A stretch of 40,103 nucleotides of DNA, taken from assembly GCA_009691245.1 (NCBI GenBank), contig SHUM01000031.1:1-40103 (forward strand), given 5' to 3'. Positions within the stretch are counted from its first letter, which is position 1. Each line of letters starts with the position of its first letter. The DNA is from Acidobacteriota bacterium. Its GTDB lineage: Bacteria > Acidobacteriota > Terriglobia > 2-12-FULL-54-10. The notes below the pieces were generated by a model that worked only from the letters and a program-made list of their open reading frames with translations, was not told where the DNA came from and searched no databases. Made by a program: the position numbers and the translations under genes. Shown in pieces: positions 1,245 through 21,241 of this stretch.

Positions 1245-3068
1245 CTAGCGCTGCGCCGCAATCTGCTCAGCGGTGCGGAACTGGATGCGGGCCAGTTTGC
1301 TGGTGCGCCAGTAAGGCGTCCACACCTCCACCGGCTCGGTGCGATTGTCCACGGCGATGAAGCGCGTCTCGGTGCCGCGCGTGGGCAGGTGGAAATCGGT
1401 CCACTTCTCCGTCTTCGGGTTGAAGCGGGCCACGCGGTCGGCGTGCATCAGATTCATCCATACCATGCCGTGCTTGTCGATCACCGTGTCATAGACGCCG
1501 CGAAACTCATTCTGGTTCGGCGGATTGTACATGGTTACCTTGTGCGTCTTGGAATCAATCTTCGCCAGATTGTCGCCCCACCAGTTGGCCACCCAGACGG
1601 TCGAGCCTTTCTTGTCCGCGCCCAGCCGGCGCGGCGCTTGTGCGTCAAAGGCAGACGAGTTCCAGTCTGAGCCGGTCGCCTGGAACGTCTCGCGATCCTT
1701 CGCGGTCATGAGCTTATCGAACTCGGTGCGGCGGTTGAGCGCGACTTCAGTGATTTCGCCGGTGCGGTAGTTGCCCACGCCCAGCTTGTCGTAGTTCATC
1801 TGCGCCCACCAGCCATTGCCGTCAGCATCCGCCGCGACGCCGTACGTCCGGCCGTCGTTGCCGGGACTAAGCGACTTGAACGGCTTGAACTGATTGGTCG
1901 CCGGATCGAAGGCCAGCGCGCCCTCATTTGTGGAAATCCAAACGATGCCGTCGTTGTCCACGTCGAGCGTGCCGCCGGCGCGGGCCATCCCTTTGGGCGG
2001 ATCGAACTGCTCCAGCTTCTCCGTGCGTGTATCGATCTTGCCGAGCCAGCCGTCGGCGTTGAACCACGCGACGCCTTTCTGATCAATCACGATGCCGTGG
2101 CTGCGCTTGGACAATCCCTTGCCGTTATCCAGCTTGAAGTGCTTGACCGCGCCGGTGCGCGGATCGAGTCGCGAGACGGAGCGCTCGGGATTCCCCTGCG
2201 AGTCGGCGATCCAGACCATGCCGTCCGGCGCAACTTCGGCGTCGTGCGGCCCGCGCGCCTCGTAGGCCGATGGCGTGCCCTCCATCCAGTCGCTGCCGTC
2301 CTGCGTGACATATTTCTTGAGGTCCGCGTTCGAGGTGATGTCGTACTCGGTGATCACCACCTGCGCGGCTTCTCCGCGCGGGCGCGGCGATGGCTTGAAG
2401 CTGAGCTTCGAGTTTGGCCCGGCTACCTTCTCGAGATAGACAGCCAGTTCATCCTTGAAGTAGCGCAGCAGAGGCATGGGCGGCTCTGCGGGATCTGGCG
2501 GATCGCCGTAGATGCCCACGCCTTCCATCAGGTCAATAATTTTTTTCCAGCCCGCCTCATCGAAACGGTTCTGCAGCACGAAGCTCGGCTGATGGCATCC
2601 GGCGCAGTTGTTGCGGAAGGCCATCTTCATGCGCGCGTCGGCGGGCGTAGCCTCGGGCAACGCGGCCATCCACTCGGCGCTGGAGAGCTGGCGCGTGTAG
2701 TCCGCCAGCGGCTTCATGGTGAAGTTTTGCTTCGCTGATTTGCTGGAGTCCATCGTAGCGTCGGCGCGCGCTGTTTCATAGCCGATGGCCTGCGCCCACA
2801 CCTTGTATGCGCCAGCGTCCAGCGTCGGTCCTAGGGCAGGAAACACGTACGCACCCTGCTCGTCTGTGAAGACCGTGGTGGTGATGGTCGCGCCCGCGCG
2901 CTTGGCCGAAACAGTAACGCCTTCGAGCGGCTTGCCGTCGCCGGACCTGATCACGCCGGTGAGTGAACCGGCATGCGCAGCGGCCGCGGTCAGCAGCAGG
3001 GCCGCCACCGCGAAGACCAACATCACTTGCTTTCTTTTGCTAATCCCCAGTTCGTCCCGTGTTGGCAT
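1245..3068 (-). CDS. secreted haem-c / Vgb-like beta-propeller protein with regulatory domain
   Basis: A 607-residue predicted periplasmic protein. The order of parts is: signal peptide (hydrophobic VMLVFAVAALLLTAAAAHA); a carboxypeptidase-regulatory-like beta-sandwich at about residues 35-120 (LTGVIRSGDGKPLEGVTVSA); one c-type haem site C155-A-G-C158-H159; then a C-terminal propeller with repeated blades of the type GxVWIADSQG and RFNPKTEKW, as in virginiamycin-B-lyase/SMP-30 proteins. The ATG at 3068 is preferred over GTG at 3083 because AAGGAGGG sits 5 bases before it. It overlaps the upstream cytochrome gene by 29 bases, so the two are probably translationally coupled. The substrate is unknown; lyase activity should not be assumed from the fold. 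Two relatives lie at 4764 and 21241. Confidence 0.85.
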   Translation of the reverse strand: MPTRDELGISKRKQVMLVFAVAALLLTAAAAHAGSLTGVIRSGDGKPLEGVTVSAKRAGATITTTVFTDEQGAYVFPALGPTLDAGAYKVWAQAIGYETARADATMDSSKSAKQNFTMKPLADYTRQLSSAEWMAALPEATPADARMKMAFRNNCAGCHQPSFVLQNRFDEAGWKKIIDLMEGVGIYGDPPDPAEPPMPLLRYFKDELAVYLEKVAGPNSKLSFKPSPRPRGEAAQVVITEYDITSNADLKKYVTQDGSDWMEGTPSAYEARGPHDAEVAPDGMVWIADSQGNPERSVSRLDPRTGAVKHFKLDNGKGLSKRSHGIVIDQKGVAWFNADGWLGKIDTRTEKLEQFDPPKGMARAGGTLDVDNDGIVWISTNEGALAFDPATNQFKPFKSLSPGNDGRTYGVAADADGNGWWAQMNYDKLGVGNYRTGEITEVALNRRTEFDKLMTAKDRETFQATGSDWNSSAFDAQAPRRLGADKKGSTVWVANWWGDNLAKIDSKTHKVTMYNPPNQNEFRGVYDTVIDKHGMVWMNLMHADRVARFNPKTEKWTDFHLPTRGTETRFIAVDNRTEPVEVWTPYWRTSKLARIQFRTAEQIAAQR

Positions 3069-3480
3069 TGGACCCTCCTTCACTCTTCGCCGCGGCTGGC
3101 GGCGCTTTCAGCGTTTTCAGATACGCGATCACATCATCAATCTCGCTGGCTTGCAGGCCGTACTGAAAACCAGGCATGCGCGGCGTGCCCTCGCGGATGG
3201 CCGTGCGCGCCAGCGCCTCGAATTGCGGGTTGCGCAGATAACCATCCAGCACCGGCCCATACGGTTTCACCGACGCCGGCCTGTAAAGCGGCGGCAAATG
3301 GCAGATCGAGCAGCGCTGGAGAAACACCTTCTTGCCGCGCAGCTCCGAGCCGGACAGCGATTCGTTGCCCGCCGCCTGCTGCGCGCGCGCCGCCGTGCCC
3401 ACGCCAGCCATCAGCGCACCAAGCAGGATCAAATCAATAAAATTAACATCGCGACGCACCAGAAAATCCTCCCACGGCAT
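3040..3480 (-). CDS. small secreted c-type cytochrome
   Basis: A class-I-like monohaem cytochrome c of about 146 residues. It has an N-terminal hydrophobic export segment (FIDLILLGALMAGVGTAARA). The haem attachment motif CSICH lies about 40% along, and a distal Met ligand candidate is in GTPRMPGFQYGL, followed by the usual C-terminal helix (IDDVIAYLKTL). It probably passes electrons in the periplasm, perhaps to or from the haem-propeller protein encoded immediately downstream, whose start codon it overlaps. The start is uncertain: ATG at 3480 gives a clean signal peptide but has only a weak upstream GGGGAAG; TTG at 3525 would add 15 residues. Confidence 0.82.
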   Translation of the reverse strand: MPWEDFLVRRDVNFIDLILLGALMAGVGTAARAQQAAGNESLSGSELRGKKVFLQRCSICHLPPLYRPASVKPYGPVLDGYLRNPQFEALARTAIREGTPRMPGFQYGLQASEIDDVIAYLKTLKAPPAAAKSEGGSNANTGRTGD

Positions 3481-3682
3481 CTTCCCCGTTTTGCCACCCA
3501 CGGTTTTGCCGCTATGATACGCCAATTTATCATAAATTAGCAGGATTGATTTTGATCCGAATGCTTAGATTCCCTGAAGGGGAATCAGAGGATAGCCGAA
3601 GGCATCGCCCCCGGAATCATTAGCCGAAATTATTAGGATGCTCCACATCCACGCCGAGCCCCGGCAGGGGCGACAGATAGTA

Positions 3683-4264: not shown

Positions 4265-4530
4265 AAAGTTTCCTTTCCGACCTTGTTGTTTCACGCGCGG
4301 AGATGATGCGGATGGCATCTGCCGAATCTGCGTGGGACACCACAAGAAGCCGACCAGAATTTGACATCCCAAAGGTAACCGAGCGCCGCTCACTCAGGGA
4401 ATGATCCGGGTCGTCGCCGGTTACAGAAAGCGTGTCGAAGAATACCGTGGATGCTTCCTGAAATGAGATGCCATGTTCGCGGATGTTGGTGCGTGCCTTC
4501 CTAGCATCTCACTCGAAAAGTATACGTCAT
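4248..4530 (-). pseudogene. brnT: broken BrnT-family RNase toxin
   Basis: Reading from ATG at 4530 gives MTYTF. If one T of the TTTT run at about 4515-4518 (minus-strand view) is ignored, the frame continues FE-stop-DARKARTNIREHGIS, then FQEASTVFFDTL, DDPDHSLSERRSVTFGMS, RLLVVSHADS and IRIISARETTRSERKLYEE. This is a near full-length BrnT-like protein (usual length ~90). The conserved FEWD Trp codon is TGA instead of TGG. A one-base insertion plus a nonsense change therefore disable it at residues 5-7. No in-frame upstream start rescues it, because TGA also lies directly upstream in the downstream frame. The remainder is free of further stops, which implies recent inactivation. Confidence 0.75.
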
Positions 4531-4763
4531 CTCCGCCGGGCTTTTCGCATTTCCAGCGATTCGAACATATCGCACTGGATATTCCATTGCGAAGCCCACG
4601 CGGCGAAGGGGCCGCCCGGCAAAATTATCCCTTACGTGCTGCTGTGGAACGGGCTACAATCGGCGCATTGCTGTTTTATTTGCATTGCTGGAATAGTGGA
4701 ATCGGCGAGCCGTGGGCGCGCGTTAACCGTGCGCCGGGCGGCCACATCAGGAGGGTGTTTCGT

Positions 4764-6521
4764 ATGAAGAGTACCAGGAGAATCGCATTTAATTTGGCGG
4801 CATTGCTGCTGCTGCCTATGCTGGCGATGCAGCCGGCCGCGCAGGCGGCAACTCTGCCGGGCACGGCGACGGTATCAGGGACAGTCGAAGCACCCCAGCC
4901 CTTCAAGGCCGCGCAGGTTTATTTCCGTAACAACGCCAAGCGCATGCTCTACATGGTCTATACCGTGGGCGGCAAATACAACGCACTGCATCTGTTTCCC
5001 GGCGAGTACGAAGTCAGCGTGAAGACCAAGGGCCTGCAGTCCGACCTGCAGAAGCTGACCGTGACGGCGGGGCAGGCCGCCTCGATGAATCTGTCCATGC
5101 ACGCCTCCACCGCCGCCGAGCAGCGCCGCAGCACGGAGATGAAGTACGAGGAAATCTACCCGGCCGGCCCAGGTCGCGTCATCGCGGAGCGCACTTGCCT
5201 CTACTGCCACGGAAATAATTATCTCCCCGCCCGCGCATGGGATGAGAAGAAGTGGTCCGAAGCCATTGACCTGATGCTAGGCCAGGGCAATCCACAGGGC
5301 GCGCAGATTCAGCCCGCGGACCTGCTGGCGGCGGACCGGCAGGTGCTGACGAAATATCTGGTGGACAACTTCGGCCCCGACAGCAAGCCGCGCTCGGTGC
5401 GCGTCGAGGTGGATCTCCCGGTCGATGAATCGCTGCTCGCCAAGGCCGAGTACATCGAGTATTACTTCAGCGTCGATGCGCCGGGACAGGGTGTCAACGA
5501 TCCCCAATACAAGAGGCCGGGCGCTACCGGCGAGATGGGTTTCGCCGCCGGACGCCGCATGGGGCAGGAGCCTCAGCTTCATCCCGACGGCACTGTTTGG
5601 ACCGTGGACCGTGGCTTTCCTACGCGCATTGTAAAGCTCGACCCGCGCACCGGCGTATCAAAAGATTACCTGATGCCCAACCCCATGGCCGCGTTGCACG
5701 ATCTGGAAATTGACAAGCTGGGAATCATCTGGGTGCCGGAAAACGAAGGCGTGCCCAAGACCGAGCCGAAGCTGTGGAAGTTCGACCCCAAGACAGAGAA
5801 GTGGTTCGAGAGCTTTCCGTTCGATCCGAAAAAGGTGATCAGCGATGACACGCTGAAGCATCCACACTCCATTGCCTTCGACTCCAAAGCGAACGTTTAC
5901 GTCAGCTACATCCTCGGCGGCGGACTTTCGGTGTGGAACCGCGAAACCAAGCAGATGCAGACCTACATGATTCCCACGCCGAACTCGTTCCCCTACGGCG
6001 TAGTGGTGGACAAGAACGACAACGTCTGGATCGCCGAGTTCCACGGCAGTAAGCTCGCCAAGTTCGATACCAAGACCAAGCAGTTCACCGAGTACAATCC
6101 GCCGACGCAGCCTGCGCTGATTCGCCGCCTGACCGTGGGCTCGGATGGCCTGACCATCTGGGCCGGCCTGTTCAGCGCCGGCAGGCTGGAAAAGCTCGAT
6201 CAAAAAACCGGCAAGTTCACCGAGTACAAAATTCCCCACCAGGTCTCGCAGCCCTATGACTTCACCCCGCAGGGCAAGTACCTCTGGTTCAGTGATGCGG
6301 GGCAGGGCGGCACGCTGATCCGTTTCGACTCGCAGACCGAGAAGTTCGACTATTTCCCCGCGCCGCAGACCGCCGACATGCCCAAGATTCGCCTCACCAA
6401 AGAAGGCGCGATCTGGTATTCGCCGCGCTCCAGCCGCGACTGGCCGGGCTCGGGCGTGCTGTATCCCGACGCCACGAAGATCACCACGCTGGCCGCCTTT
6501 CCCGCGCCGCGCGGCTGGTAA
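4764..6521 (+). CDS. secreted haem-c / Vgb-like beta-propeller protein
   Basis: A 585-residue paralogue of the 1245-3068 product with the same order of parts. It has a signal peptide (MKSTRRIAFNLAALLLLPML..AQA), a regulatory beta-sandwich at residues ~35-115 (ATVSGTVEAPQPFKAAQVYF), one haem-c site C145-L-Y-C148-H149, and a C-terminal propeller with blades such as DNVWIAEFHGSKLAKFDTKT and GRLEKLDQKTGKFTEYKIP. The reading frame is open back to 4473. ATG at 4764 is chosen because AGGAGG sits 9 bases before it and a clean signal peptide follows. A strong terminator follows at 6546. It is likely periplasmic and redox-active; substrate unknown. Confidence 0.86.
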   Translation: MKSTRRIAFNLAALLLLPMLAMQPAAQAATLPGTATVSGTVEAPQPFKAAQVYFRNNAKRMLYMVYTVGGKYNALHLFPGEYEVSVKTKGLQSDLQKLTVTAGQAASMNLSMHASTAAEQRRSTEMKYEEIYPAGPGRVIAERTCLYCHGNNYLPARAWDEKKWSEAIDLMLGQGNPQGAQIQPADLLAADRQVLTKYLVDNFGPDSKPRSVRVEVDLPVDESLLAKAEYIEYYFSVDAPGQGVNDPQYKRPGATGEMGFAAGRRMGQEPQLHPDGTVWTVDRGFPTRIVKLDPRTGVSKDYLMPNPMAALHDLEIDKLGIIWVPENEGVPKTEPKLWKFDPKTEKWFESFPFDPKKVISDDTLKHPHSIAFDSKANVYVSYILGGGLSVWNRETKQMQTYMIPTPNSFPYGVVVDKNDNVWIAEFHGSKLAKFDTKTKQFTEYNPPTQPALIRRLTVGSDGLTIWAGLFSAGRLEKLDQKTGKFTEYKIPHQVSQPYDFTPQGKYLWFSDAGQGGTLIRFDSQTEKFDYFPAPQTADMPKIRLTKEGAIWYSPRSSRDWPGSGVLYPDATKITTLAAFPAPRGW

Positions 6522-7666: not shown

Positions 7667-10165
7667 TTGCGGGATAACTCAATCGTGCGAATTGCGTTTG
7701 TTGTCATACTGGTGTCGGCGTCGGTTGCGTTTTCGCAAACTCCTCCAGCCGCGCCCGGAGCGCAGTACACGGCCACCGTCAATCGCTACTGCGTTTCCTG
7801 CCATAACGAAAAACTTAGGACCGCCAGCTTGTCGCTTGAAAAACTTGACGTCGGCGATGTCGCCGGGCACGGAGAAATTTGGGAGAAGGTCATTCGCAAG
7901 CTGCGCACCGGGGCCATGCCGCCTACCGGCGCGCCGCGTCCTGATAAGGCCATGAATGATGGTCTTGCGACTTACCTGGAAACTTCGCTCGACCGCGCCG
8001 CTGCTGCGAACGTCAACCCGGGGCGCGCCGCCGCCGTGCATCGTTTGAATCGCGGCGAGTACGCCAACGCGGTGCGCGATCTGCTGGCTGTCGAGGTCAA
8101 CGCGCTCGACCTGCTGCCGCCCGATGAATCGACCAACGGGTTTGACAACAACGGCGAAGTGCTCTCGGTCTCGCCTGTGCTGCTCGAGCGCTACATGACC
8201 GCTGCGCGCCGCATCGCGCGCCAGGCCGTGGGCGACGAGGCGACCAAGCCGTATTACGAAACCTATCTCATCGACAAGTCGTTGCGCCAGGAAGGCCGCA
8301 TGGGCGGGGGGTTGCCGTTGGGCTCGCGCGGCGGCAAGGCCATCCGACATTATTTCCCGCTCGACGCCAATTACTCCATCCGCGTACGCATGACGCGCGA
8401 TTATCGCGACCGCATCCGCGGGCTGCAGGAGCCGCATCAGCTCGACGTGCGCGTCGACGGCAAGCTGATCAGGAGTTTTACCATCGGCGGTGAAAAGCAT
8501 GGTCGCTCGGCTTCCATATTTTCCACCGGAGGCACCGGCGACCCCGCGCAGGAGCACTACGAGCTGAGCGCGGACGATCAGCTTCAACTCCTCTTTCCCG
8601 CCACCACCGGCGCGCATACCGTGGCCGTGGCCTTCGCCGAAGCTGACTTCGAGCCGGAAGGCCCGTTGCAACAGATCAACAGTCGCCCCGAGTCACTCGA
8701 ACGAATACCATTGGGTGACTACGTTGCCTACAAAGGCGGCGACCCCGGCGTGGAGGAAGTCATCATCGGCGGCCCATTCAGCCCGCGCGGCATCGGCTCT
8801 TCCCCCAGCCGCGAAAAAATCTTCACCTGCCTGCCGTCGCCGCGCGCGTCACAGAGCCGCGACCGGGAGGGAGCGGGGGTTCCCCCCTCCTCGAACAACG
8901 TCCCCTCCGATGAAACCTGCGCCAGGCAAATTCTCTCCACCCTCGCCCGTCGCGCCTATCGCCGACCTCTAACCGCGCAAGATCAGGAAACGCTACTCAC
9001 GTTCTATCGCACCGGTTCCAAAAAGGCCGATTTCGAAGCCGGCATACAGACGGCCCTCGAACGTATTCTGGTCGGTCCTGAGTTTCTCTTCCGCGTGTAT
9101 CGCGACCCCGCAGGCATTGCCACCGGTGCAACGTATCGCTTGAGCGACCTCGATCTGGCGTCGCGCCTGTCCTTCTTCCTGTGGTCCAGCATCCCGGATG
9201 ACACGCTGCTGGCGCTCGCCGAGACCGGGAAGCTCCACGACCCCGCCGTGCTGGAGCAGCAGACCCGCCGCATGTTGGCCGACCGCCGCGCGCGCGCCCT
9301 AGTGGACAACTTCGCAGAGTCCTGGCTCTACCTGCGCAACCTGCGCTCCATGAAGCCCGACCCGGACGCCTTCCCCGAGTGGGATGAAAACCTGCGCGAG
9401 GCATTTCATAGCGAGACCACTCTGTTCGTCGAGAACTTGATCCGCGAGGATCGCAGCGTACTAGAATTACTCAGCGCGGACTACACATTCTTGAACGACC
9501 GCCTCGCGCGCCACTACGGTATCCCCAACGTCTATGGCAGTCACTTTCGCAAAGTGAGTCTGAGTGACTCATTACTCGAGGGGGGGCGCGGCGGCTTACT
9601 GGGGCAGGGAAGCATACTCACTGTTACTTCCTACGCCAACCGTACTTCGCCCGTGCTGCGCGGTAAGTGGGTGCTGGAGAATCTGCTCGGCTCTCCGCCA
9701 CCACCACCTCCCGCCAATGTCCCTTCGCTGGTGGACAAGAGTAAGGATGGCAAACTGCTCACCGTGCGTCAGCGCATGGAGCAGCATCGCGCCAATCCGG
9801 CCTGCGCGGGGTGCCACTCGCGCATGGACCCGCTGGGCTTTGCGCTCGAGAATTTCGACGGCCTCGGCAAGTGGCGCACCGTAGACTCCGGCGCGACGAT
9901 TGACCCCTCGGGCGTGCTGCCGGACGGCTCGAAGTTCGCAGGCCCCGCTGGCTTGCGCAAGCTGCTCATCGGCAAGCAGCAGGAGATCACCGCCACCTTC
10001 GCCGAGAAGCTGTTGATCTACGCCACCGGCCGCGGTGTGGAGTACACCGACCAGCCCGCGCTTAGAAAGCTACTGAGAGATGCCGCGAAGGAGAACTTCC
10101 GTTTCTCATCGCTGGTAACAGGAATTGTATCTAGCACGCCCTTTCAGATGCGGCGCGCGCAGTGA
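7667..10165 (+). CDS. DUF1592-type secreted cytochrome (planctomycete-type cytochrome c)
   Basis: An 832-residue exported protein with the series typical of this family: N-terminal haem site C42-V-S-C-H46; DUF1587 at about residues 120-190 ([20 protein letters not shown]); a carbohydrate-binding-like middle; DUF1595 ([19 protein letters not shown]); DUF1592 ([20 protein letters not shown]); DUF1588 ([20 protein letters not shown]) with a second haem site C713-A-G-C-H717; and DUF1585 at the C-terminus. The start is TTG at 7667 or GTG at 7685; both lead into the same signal peptide and neither has a strong ribosome site. The DUF1552 gene follows, as usual for this pair. Residues ~395-407 ([10 protein letters not shown]) are encoded by a dispersed repeat arm, so this linker is a repeat insertion. 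The family's substrate is not firmly known. Confidence 0.9.
8851..8881 (+). repeat. repeat family C arm inside a coding sequence
   Basis: ACAGAGCCGCGACC plus GGAGGGAGCGGGGGTT matches the arms of the palindromic element at 17677-17775, with about one difference from its consensus. It sits in frame in the DUF1592 gene and encodes [10 protein letters not shown]. Only one arm is present, so no hairpin forms here. Confidence 0.75.
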
Positions 10166-17676: not shown

Positions 17677-17775
17677 ACAGAGCCGCGATCGTGAGGGAGC
17701 GGGGGTTGGTTGTGAGTTGGTCGCCGTGCTCTCGGGCGAAACCCAACCCCCGCTCCTTCACGGTCGCGGCTCTGT
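17677..17775. repeat. palindromic element C between convergent genes
   Basis: The arms 17677-17709 and 17743-17775 are inverted copies of 33 bases with two mismatches (ACAGAGCCGCGA...GGAGCGGGGGTTGG), enclosing 33 bases. The element fills the space between the TonB receptor stop codon and the nucleoside transporter stop codon. It can form a strong hairpin on both transcripts. Related copies lie at 8851 and 22577. Confidence 0.88.
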
Positions 17776-19064
17776 CACGCTTCCAGAACTCCGACGACGG
17801 CTCCGAGCAGGCAGGTGGAAAGCGTTCCGGAGACGATCGACTTCAGGCCCAGCGAGACGACATCGTTGCGGCGCGCCGGAGCCATGGTGGCCAGGCCGCC
17901 GATCATGATGCCGAGGCTGCCGAAGTTGGCGAATCCGCACATCGCATAGAGCATGATCATGCGCGAGCGCGGGGAGAGCGCCTCGGCGGGCAGCGCGGCC
18001 ATCTGCAGGTAGGCGATAAATTCATTCAGGATTGTCTTCACGCCCATCAGGCTGCCGGCGGTGGCGGTCTCGGCCCACGGCACACCCATCAACCAGCAAA
18101 CCGGCGCCATCAACACTCCCAACATGCGCTGCAAGGTGATTGGCGCTCCCGCGACATCAGGCAGCGCGTTGAGCATCAGGTTTGCCAGATGGACCAGCGC
18201 GACGAGCACGATAAGCATCGCGACTATATTGAGAAGAAGCTCCAGGCCGGCGGTGGTTCCCTTGGCCACGGCATCCATGCTGCTGGATGCCACGGGCGCA
18301 TCCGGTTCCAGTTCTTTGTCTTCAAGCTTAGACTCGTCGTTGGTCGTCCGTTGAATTTCCGGGACCATTTCCGGAACCATGATGAGGGATATCAAGATCG
18401 CCGCCGGCGCGCCCATCACCGAGGCGATGATGAAGTGGCTGGTGGCGCCGGGAATCACCGAGCCAAGGATAGTGGCATAGAGCACCAGCATGGTGCCCGC
18501 GATGCCGGCCATGCCGCCGGTCATCACGATAAACAGTTCGCTGCGCGTGAGCCGGTTGAGATAGGGGCGAATGAATAGTGGCGCTTCGACCATTCCGACA
18601 AAGATGTTTGCGGCGGTCGAGAGCCCAACCGCGCCGCCCACGCCCAGCGTTTTTCTTAGCAGATGCGCCAGCAGGCGAATGACAGGCGGAAGAATTTTCC
18701 AGTAGTAGAGCAACGTTGTTAGAACGCTCATCACCAGTACGATGGGCAGCGCCTGGAAAGCCAGCACGAACTCCGCGCCCGGCGTCTTCGGATCAAACGG
18801 CAATGGTCCGCCGCCGAGGTATCCGAAGACTATGCTGGTTCCGGCGCGAGTGGCTTCCGACAGACCATCCACAAGTTTGTTGGCGTGTGTAAAGATGGCG
18901 CGGATGGGAGGAATCTTCAGCAATGCCCCAGCCAGCAGGAAGGTGACGCCGAGCCCCACGCCCGCCTGCTTCCAGCGAACCGCCGGGCGATTCTCGCTCA
19001 TCACCCAGGCGATGCCGAGCAGCGCGACAACTCCCAGGACGGATTGCAGTTGCGCAGAAATCAT
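17775..19064 (-). CDS. nupC: concentrative nucleoside transporter (CNT family)
   Basis: A 429-residue inner-membrane protein with about ten hydrophobic segments, the usual CNT length. Family signatures are visible: GGAVGLSTAANIFVGMVEAP, the substrate/ion-binding stretch VKTILNEFIAYLQ, and GFANFGSLGIMIGGL near the C-terminus. A charged loop of ~35 residues (QRTTNDESKLEDKELEPDAP) separates the N-terminal from the C-terminal core. It takes up nucleosides with Na+ or H+. Its ATG overlaps the TGA of the upstream cytochrome/propeller gene (ATGA), so the two are translationally coupled. The symbol is by family only. Confidence 0.92.
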   Translation of the reverse strand: MISAQLQSVLGVVALLGIAWVMSENRPAVRWKQAGVGLGVTFLLAGALLKIPPIRAIFTHANKLVDGLSEATRAGTSIVFGYLGGGPLPFDPKTPGAEFVLAFQALPIVLVMSVLTTLLYYWKILPPVIRLLAHLLRKTLGVGGAVGLSTAANIFVGMVEAPLFIRPYLNRLTRSELFIVMTGGMAGIAGTMLVLYATILGSVIPGATSHFIIASVMGAPAAILISLIMVPEMVPEIQRTTNDESKLEDKELEPDAPVASSSMDAVAKGTTAGLELLLNIVAMLIVLVALVHLANLMLNALPDVAGAPITLQRMLGVLMAPVCWLMGVPWAETATAGSLMGVKTILNEFIAYLQMAALPAEALSPRSRMIMLYAMCGFANFGSLGIMIGGLATMAPARRNDVVSLGLKSIVSGTLSTCLLGAVVGVLEA

Positions 19065-21241
19065 TTCGCCAGCGGGTCCGGGCGCAACTGGAACTTCACG
19101 ACCTTACTGGTGGTTCCTTTGCCGCCTTCCACGTGGAACGGAGTGCGCGTCGCGTAGGTGGACCACAGGCCGCGGCCTTTCCATCCCGCGTTGGGGTCGT
19201 CGATGCGTCCGTCGAGGCCCTTGGCATAGAAGCCCATGGGGTAGGGAACGCGCAGCGTGGTGAATTTGCCGGTCGCCGGGTCCAGCGCCAGCAGCGCGTC
19301 GGAGAGATTGCCGGTGGCGATCGGCGTATTCTTACCGAGACCGAAGATGTCATGCCAATCCACCCAGCTAAAGTAGCTCGACTCGGCGCTGCCGTAATCC
19401 TTGGCGCTGCGCAGCGGCGGACCAGGGAAGGGATAGAGCGTCCAGCCTTCCGGGCAATGTTGGCCGGTGGCCGTGGGGCCATTTAATGGGCCTTTGCATT
19501 TGCGACGGTCGAAGCTGGCGAAGTGTCCGCTGGCCAGCGGTGCCCATACGACGTTGTTGCGATCCACGTCCATGCCGCGTGGCGCAAAACCTTGTCCCTT
19601 GACTGCCGGGTTGTCATAGGGCAGTTCGAAGATTTCAGCCAGCGCGGTGGAAGGCGGATTCGCGCCGGGGTTGAGACGGACAATCGAACCGGGGAAGCCA
19701 AGCGAAGAGGCCCAGACGGAGCCGTCCGGGGCGGGCATCACGCCATAGAATCCCGCGCTGATGCGTTTGTCCTTCGAGGAATCAACCGCTTGATCGGGCT
19801 CCACCCAGGCATCCTGCTTGCCGTTGCCGTTGATGTCCAGAATGAGCGGAGTCCAGCCCTGGGACTTTTGCTCGTCGCCGGTCTCGTCCAGCATCTTGGT
19901 GTTCAGCCATCCCACCACCTGGCCGCCGCCGCTGGTCCACAGAGTGTGATTGGCGTCTTCCGCGAAGAACAGATGATGCGTGCTGTAGCAGGTTTGCACC
20001 AGCGTCCAACGTCGGCCCTTGGGGTTGTACATGGCGATGTGGCGGCTGCTCGACTCGACGGGAAAAAGTTTCGCCGATGGATGGTCTGATCCCTTTTTAC
20101 AAAACTCGGGATTGTCATTGGGGCTTACCTTGGAGGTCAGCCACACGCGGCCTTCCTGATCGATCATGGGGTTGTGCGCGTTCACTTTGCTGTCCCAGAT
20201 GGGCTCTTCATCCCAATAAACCGATGATTGAAAGCCCGTGCGCGGCGAGGCGTAGGGCGTCTCAAGATCGCGCAGCGGAATCTTGATCTGCGTCGCGGTA
20301 TTCTTGACGGGATCGAGCACGCTCATGAAGTCCGAGCTGAACTCCGTAACGCCGTAGACAGGGCCATTGGCGTTGACGGTGGGATTGCGCTTGTCCGTGG
20401 TCACTTCGTCGTGGAAATACTCCTTGGACTTGGCCCAATCCCAGACGGAGACCACGATGTTGCGTTCCTTACCTTGCGGACGTTGCGGCACGGGCGGAAG
20501 TTCTCCGGCGGCGATGCGATCCGTCCAATCTGCAAACAGCGAGGCGGCGCGCGGACCCATGCCGTTCAAATTGTTGCCCATATTGCTGCCGGCTTGACCG
20601 GAGAGAATACGGCGTTCCCACGCCTTGGTGGAATTTTCAAGATTGCTGAACTCTTTGGGCACCTCACGGGTGGCCTGGTTGCCGAGCTGATGTCAGGTGA
20701 CGCAGCCGTCCGTCTTAATCGACTTCAGCCACATTGCTTGATTCTTTATGTTTGGATGGATGCCGTTTCCGGTGGCGCCGGTGCCGGGGAAATCGCTCTT
20801 GGGCGGGACATCAAGCATCGAGTACCAGTAAATGGCGGGGTAATATTTGGCCGCCGCCTGCGGCGAAGGCGCAGGTTGCGCTGCGAGGTTCAGGATGTTT
20901 CCCGGGACGGTTTCCATCGGCGTGGAATCAACCAGGCCGTACCCACGAACCCAAATTTTATATTGCCCAGCCGGCAGGTCGGGAATCAGGTAGCGCCCCT
21001 GATCGTCCGTAACCACGGACTTGGAAAACTTGGTTGGCAGGTTGGTGGTTTCGGCAATCACCCATACGCCCGCCTCCGGTCCGCTGGATCCGATGACACG
21101 CCCGCCGATGTCGTCGCTGTCAACAGCCACGGCGGGGGCGGCTGGAGTTTGTGCCGCACTCCGTCCAGAGTAGAGCGGTGTCAGCAGAGCAAGCGCGAAT
21201 CCAACTGCCAAACGGGCAATGGTACGGGATGATCGTTGCAT
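19061..21241 (-). CDS. secreted haem-c / beta-propeller protein with in-frame TGA in CxxCH
   Basis: Read through one TGA, this is a single 726-residue protein of the same architecture as the products at 1245 and 4764. It has a signal peptide (IARLAVGFALALLTPLYSG), a regulatory beta-sandwich at ~45-110 (IGGRVIGSSGPEAGVWVIAE), a haem-c site, and a propeller. The haem site reads DGCVT-TGA-HQLGNQATREVP: the TGA (20693-20695, codon 183) replaces exactly the second Cys of C180-x-x-C-H184. Coding continues without break for 543 codons (SGQAGSNMGN, ADWTDRIAAGELPP, VWLTSKVSP, DGSVWASSLGFPG) and overlaps the transporter start. The start ATG 21241 has GGAGG 6 bases upstream. Possible explanations are selenocysteine or cysteine insertion at UGA, a recent nonsense mutation, or a sequencing error. 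Conventional annotation would split it at the TGA into 20693-21241 and a piece starting near 20662. Confidence 0.8.
20658..20675 (-). promoter_or_regulatory. candidate bacterial SECIS-like hairpin after the in-frame TGA
   Basis: Starting 17 bases after TGA on the minus strand, GGCCACC-CGTGA-GGTGCC can form a 6-bp stem with one bulged C and a 5-base loop. The loop begins 24 bases after the TGA and has G at its second position. Known bacterial SECIS rules are a loop 16-37 bases downstream of UGA with a G in the first two loop positions; this hairpin fits. It is short, so a chance fit is possible. Confidence 0.35.

Follow-up and report, generated by a model that had tools for sequence, protein, structure and literature searches.

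An in-frame TGA at a haem-linking cysteine codon in an acidobacterial cytochrome-propeller gene: selenocysteine or recent nonsense mutation

The cytochrome-propeller gene and its surroundings

The window, that is, the whole stretch of 40,103 nucleotides analysed here, is contig C31 of an Acidobacteriota genome assembly (G000; 3.43 Mb in 96 contigs). It holds a minus-strand gene for a putative haem-binding beta-propeller protein, which overlaps the next gene on that strand by an ATGA, a layout that reads as translationally coupled. The features to which we refer, in window coordinates, are as follows.

17775..19064, minus strand: concentrative nucleoside transporter gene, intact, 3' of the propeller gene (ATGA overlap)
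19061..21241, minus strand: haem-binding beta-propeller gene, product predicted to be secreted; 726 codons with an in-frame TGA inside
20579..20581, minus strand: codon of Met221, invariant in the alignment and lying in helix 218-228 of the model
20657..20675, minus strand: SECIS-like hairpin GG-C-CACC[CGUGA]GGUG-C-CC, with a 5-nt loop and G at position 2
20660..20662, minus strand: GTG codon of Val194, in the 3' arm of the hairpin
20693..20695, minus strand: in-frame TGA, codon 183 (gene nucleotides 547-549), at the second Cys of CxxCH
20702..20704, minus strand: codon of C180, first Cys of CxxCH, invariant in the alignment

The translation starts with MQRSS, reads DGCVT-TGA-HQLGN in its middle and ends at residue 726. 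Its product appears to carry a signal peptide and to be secreted, and consists of a CarboxypepD_reg-like domain (residues 45-113), a mono-haem cytochrome c-like insert with CxxCH at 180-184 and the invariant Met221, and a large beta-propeller of the virginiamycin B lyase type. The AlphaFold model, with a mean pLDDT of 89, shows a beta domain at the N terminus, a helical insert bearing the haem motif (helices 168-176, 180-183, 204-213, 218-228 and 231-244) and a large propeller. Met221 is probably the distal haem ligand. At the level of the family, the features of a c-type cytochrome are in place, with C180, C183, H184 and M221 invariant in a helical domain; the window protein has TGA at C183.

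Several other genes in the window encode proteins with haem motifs: a small CBB3-type cytochrome with CSICH (3040-3525, minus strand), and a DUF1592/PSCyt protein with CVSCH and CAGCH (7667-10165, plus strand) that is followed by a DUF1552 gene. The DUF1592/DUF1552 pairs and OMP_b-brl_4 receptors among the genes probably reflect the acidobacterial origin of the DNA. Two further Vgb-like propellers, at 1245-3083 on the minus strand and 4473-6521 on the plus strand, were cited in a preliminary description of this DNA as paralogues with Cys at the interrupted position. They do have Cys there (CAGCH and CLYCH, respectively), but they are only distantly related propellers (tblastn E 0.01 and 4e-5), and the real support for a conserved Cys comes from close homologues elsewhere.

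Conservation at and beyond codon 183

The in-frame TGA at the second Cys of the motif was confirmed at codon 183, as was the continuation of coding past it: the frame stays open for 543 further codons, and homology spans the TGA on both sides, the best relative being 69% identical across residues 9-726 and full-length homologues of 60-69% identity occurring across the class. Reading the same codon in homologues, a comparison that the preliminary description proposed, gave Cys in all 73 (TGC in 49 and TGT in 24), including those of the Sec-using relatives G003, G005 and G006, and TGA in the window gene only. C180, C183, H184 and M221 are kept in 65 of 65 aligned rows if the window gene is taken as Cys at 183. 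A scan of contigs from 85k GTDB genomes for the pattern CxxUHQxGxxxTR returned seven chance matches, which we rejected as TGA homologues because they are not homologous, and no other species with TGA at the site; inspection of all 56 CxxUH strings in G000 found no other in a plausible gene. With no TGA in the 73 homologues or the other species scanned, the evidence for selenocysteine (Sec) rests on one sequence, and a Sec form in more than one species, which would have been supporting rather than strictly defining, was not seen.

Two homologues have lesions of their own, a Trp-to-TGA change in GVWVIAETT (L047, on G036:C386) and a frameshift (L098, on G304:C2); both were rejected as instances of the same site. 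The search for homologues did not turn up the gene in G001, which is of the same genus, or in G002 and G004, so loss within the family is plausible. Constraint on the window gene is not looser after the TGA, where identity to its nearest relative (L003) is 72% as against 63% before it, and the gene differs at only 2 of 144 invariant alignment columns, which excludes an old pseudogene but would fit a young one. Gene-specific acceleration was rejected as a sign of decay: the branch of the gene is 0.53, but that of the intact DnaJ of this lineage is similarly long, at 0.62, as against 0.11 for DnaJ of G005. The earlier argument that a nonsense mutation would strike exactly this codon only by chance can be put in numbers for one-step random changes: TGA at this codon makes up 0.2-0.4% of those that give any stop and 1-2% of those that give TGA, while 5-12% of the one-step changes to TGA fall on a Cys codon of the gene.

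Selenocysteine use in the genome and the hairpin after the TGA

A search for selA, selB, selC and selD, likewise proposed earlier, found all four in G000, with profile scores of 552 bits for selA, 361 bits for selB and 358 bits for selD, and 73 bits for a tRNA-Sec with the UCA anticodon. SelD itself contains Sec, its gene having an in-frame TGA (KAAG-U-ASK) and a clear canonical SECIS, GUCCAA[AGGUU]UUGGAC; no Sec formate dehydrogenase scored above cut-off in this genome. Among 47 tRNA matches in G000 (Rfam, with anticodons by ARAGORN), the tRNA-Sec is the sole one with UCA and the others that were read have ordinary anticodons.

Four paralogous exported beta-propeller genes in a 1.24 Mb sample of G000 have TGA at EILVPN-U-V, each with a SECIS. 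There are about 19 such LVPN-U-V genes in the genome (L238:8213-10480 (C1:69590), C8:62115, C10:48372, C14:36100, L325-L336 and others), on account of which G000 is, judged by its gene content, a heavy user of Sec. Of 61 relatives searched, 13 have matches to these genes, over 140 in total (relatives listed under L296-L342), nearly all with an internal TGA. The proteins are exported beta-propellers of about 750 amino acids, and at every one of the 52 sites read, in G000 or in a relative, the codon is TGA, with no Cys form. Their SECIS, UUCGCC[AGGUU]GGCGAA, lies 30 nt after the TGA, and its stem covaries, with 23 cells in which both sides have changed and 0 of 500 shuffles scoring as high. Neither NCBIfam of June 2026, which has no selenoprotein model matching this propeller, nor the list of 119 prokaryotic selenoprotein families in a 2026 review (PMC13188914), which has no beta-propeller family like it, accounts for these genes, and current annotation would split them in two at the TGA. 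The LVPN-U-V propellers are apparently an undescribed, massively expanded selenoprotein family, in our view a stronger finding than the TGA at the haem site. Genomes G001 and G039 (L306, L312, L319 and L337-L342) have TGA propeller genes and SECIS hairpins, yet no clear tRNA-Sec match, probably because of assembly gaps or a divergent tRNA.

The hairpin in the cytochrome-propeller gene begins 17 nt past the TGA and has its apical loop 24 nt past it; the stem, of 4 bp, a C.C mismatch and 2 bp, is weaker than that of most true SECIS elements. For the full downstream stretch the fold of minimum energy is a different one; the hairpin becomes dominant, with a pair probability of 0.7-0.97, if the ribosome is assumed to cover the 12 nt beside the codon, and the real SECIS of SelD behaves likewise. 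The bSECIS model calls for a loop of 3-9 nt, a stem of at least 4 bp, a G at one of the first two bases of the loop, a spacing of 16-37 nt and an MFE of -7.5 or lower (PMC13188914). The hairpin described earlier as meeting bacterial SECIS rules does exist and has this geometry, but its local energy of -7.2 kcal/mol, or -8.0 when more of the 3' sequence is included and the first 12 nt are masked, puts it on the borderline of the model. The bare match to the model is weak, in that an equally good hairpin stands after 24% of the codons of nine genes in the window and occurs in 7% of synonymous recodings, and we therefore rejected the generic SECIS criterion alone as evidence.

A narrower rule, specific to this genome, requires an apical loop of 5 nt with G as its second base, 6 or more of 7 pairs and a distance of 16-37 nt from the UGA, and it is obeyed by all 52 propeller sites read and by SelD. 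The candidate hairpin also obeys it, at -5.7 kcal/mol, the true sites ranging from -4.0 to -10.4. At the energy of the candidate the rule is satisfied after 1.7% of 60,928 coding codons, in 2.3% of synonymous recodings and in 2 of the 73 Cys homologues, percentages that are optimistic because the rule was fixed after the candidate had been seen perhaps to fit. The apex of one G000 propeller gene, CC[CGUGU]GG, is one base away from the CC[CGUGA]GG of the candidate, and propeller genes on C8 and C20 share with it a C.C mismatch within the stem. Formation of the candidate stem hinges on an Ile-to-Val change at Val194 that is specific to the lineage, the position being occupied by Ile in 53 of 64 homologues and by Val in 2 of 64.

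Readings of the TGA and comparison with known systems

Given the full Sec machinery and a fitting hairpin, we hold insertion of Sec at codon 183 near even with a recent nonsense mutation, narrowly ahead, with a rough probability of 0.5, so that the idea put forward in the preliminary description is partly supported and not proven. By the proposed mechanism, SelB loaded with Sec-tRNA-Sec would attach to the hairpin, which lies 17-35 nt past the codon on the mRNA, and Sec would be inserted at residue 183. The exported cytochrome/beta-propeller protein would then be made in full length and have a haem motif that reads C-x-x-U-H, in which haem may be attached by one thioether and one selenoether, or which may instead serve as a redox CxxU site. 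The more specific proposal of a natural c-type cytochrome in which Sec replaces a haem-linking Cys (CxxUH) and binds haem covalently as a selenoether, the host being a bacterium with wide use of Sec in exported beta-propellers, is possible and, in our estimation, less likely than not.

The background of interrupted genes in G000 bears directly on the alternative. In the 1.24 Mb sample (about 36% of the genome), for which coding signal was required on both sides of an in-frame stop, at least four single-nonsense genes have stops inside Pfam domains:

G000:C5:35747: TGA in a Pyridoxal_deC domain
G000:C9:6932: TAG in a Cytochrome_C554 domain
G000:C6:64915: TAG in a NIDO domain
G000:C1:90875: TAA in a TPR protein

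Interrupted genes are thus not rare in the assembly, and a recent single C-to-A or T-to-A change may have made the Cys codon a stop in a young, otherwise intact-looking pseudogene, whose product would end after 182 residues with the haem domain and propeller lost. We give this reading somewhat less than an even chance. The Cys in every homologue read, the Trp-to-TGA and frameshift lesions in paralogues elsewhere and the failure to find the gene in three genomes all agree with it, but it would require a mutation at a codon that takes so small a share of the TGA changes, followed by a fitting hairpin that arises at about a 2% chance, in a gene whose constraint is not relaxed after the TGA. Of ten TGAs that lie within coding frames in the sample, five obey the genome-specific rule, namely those of the four propeller genes and the candidate; the other five fail, so that the other non-propeller interruptions lack such a hairpin. 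A rough count would allow a handful of genes with TGA nonsense changes per genome, about one-tenth of them at Cys and, in a few per cent of these, a hairpin that fits; as counterweight we considered that the genome is rich in Sec, that new Sec sites are plausible in it and that a haem-linking site is unreported. These priors are rough and our own.

Explanations other than Sec and nonsense mutation, sequencing or assembly error included, together take a small share of our estimate. A one-base error in this metagenome assembly is improbable: the TGA is known from a single sequence, as an error would be, but the gene has no frameshift, the site lies outside any homopolymer, and a random substitution yielding TGA at exactly this codon is very unlikely. 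Still less credible is a split into two functional genes, a 182-residue secreted domain and a 533-amino-acid ORF from the GTG at 20662, which is indeed open but would have neither haem motif nor signal peptide; none of the homologues is divided like this. Decoding of the TGA as Cys by an opal-reading tRNA-Cys or other suppressor tRNA, raised earlier since such tRNAs have been reported in some bacteria, is close to refuted and excluded as far as the assembly goes, the sole tRNA-Cys of G000 having the anticodon GCA and UCA occurring only on tRNA-Sec.

The predicted fold of the window protein has virginiamycin B lyase (Vgb, 2z2p) as its best PDB match (E 9e-10), and NirS-type cd1 nitrite reductase (NirS, 6tpo), which likewise combines cytochrome c and a propeller, ranks 40th among the PDB matches of the model. 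It resembles cytochrome c-fused Vgb-like propellers in predicted fold, although Pfam gives no significant cytochrome or Vgb_lyase match for it; weak Pfam cytochrome matches occur in 7 of 35 family members. The families in the 2026 review include Sec-bearing multihaem cytochromes (PMC13188914), and in ExtKL (NF040886) and an octahaem entry (TIGR04315), as in the window gene, the reading frame of a c-type cytochrome contains a UGA (PMC13188914; PMC1914089). The UGA of what is probably ExtKL lies downstream of the N-terminal CxxCH motifs, with a C-terminal part dissimilar to characterized proteins (PMC1914089); the review does not state the Sec motif of TIGR04315, and neither is described as a CxxUH site. 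Sec within CxxCH is absent from the 119 families of the review, and no paper for 'CXXUH' was found among the open-licence literature. With the SelB-recoded bacterial selenoproteins that occur as Cys/Sec pairs, the window gene shares a UGA at a family-invariant Cys, a genome with SelABCD, and, at a distance of 16-37 nt, a downstream hairpin whose loop has a G within its first two bases; it differs from them in being known from one species and in that its Cys is haem-linking rather than a redox-active thiol. If Sec does occupy this position, the gene would offer a test both of whether cytochrome c maturation accepts selenium and of how a selenoether affects the redox chemistry of haem.
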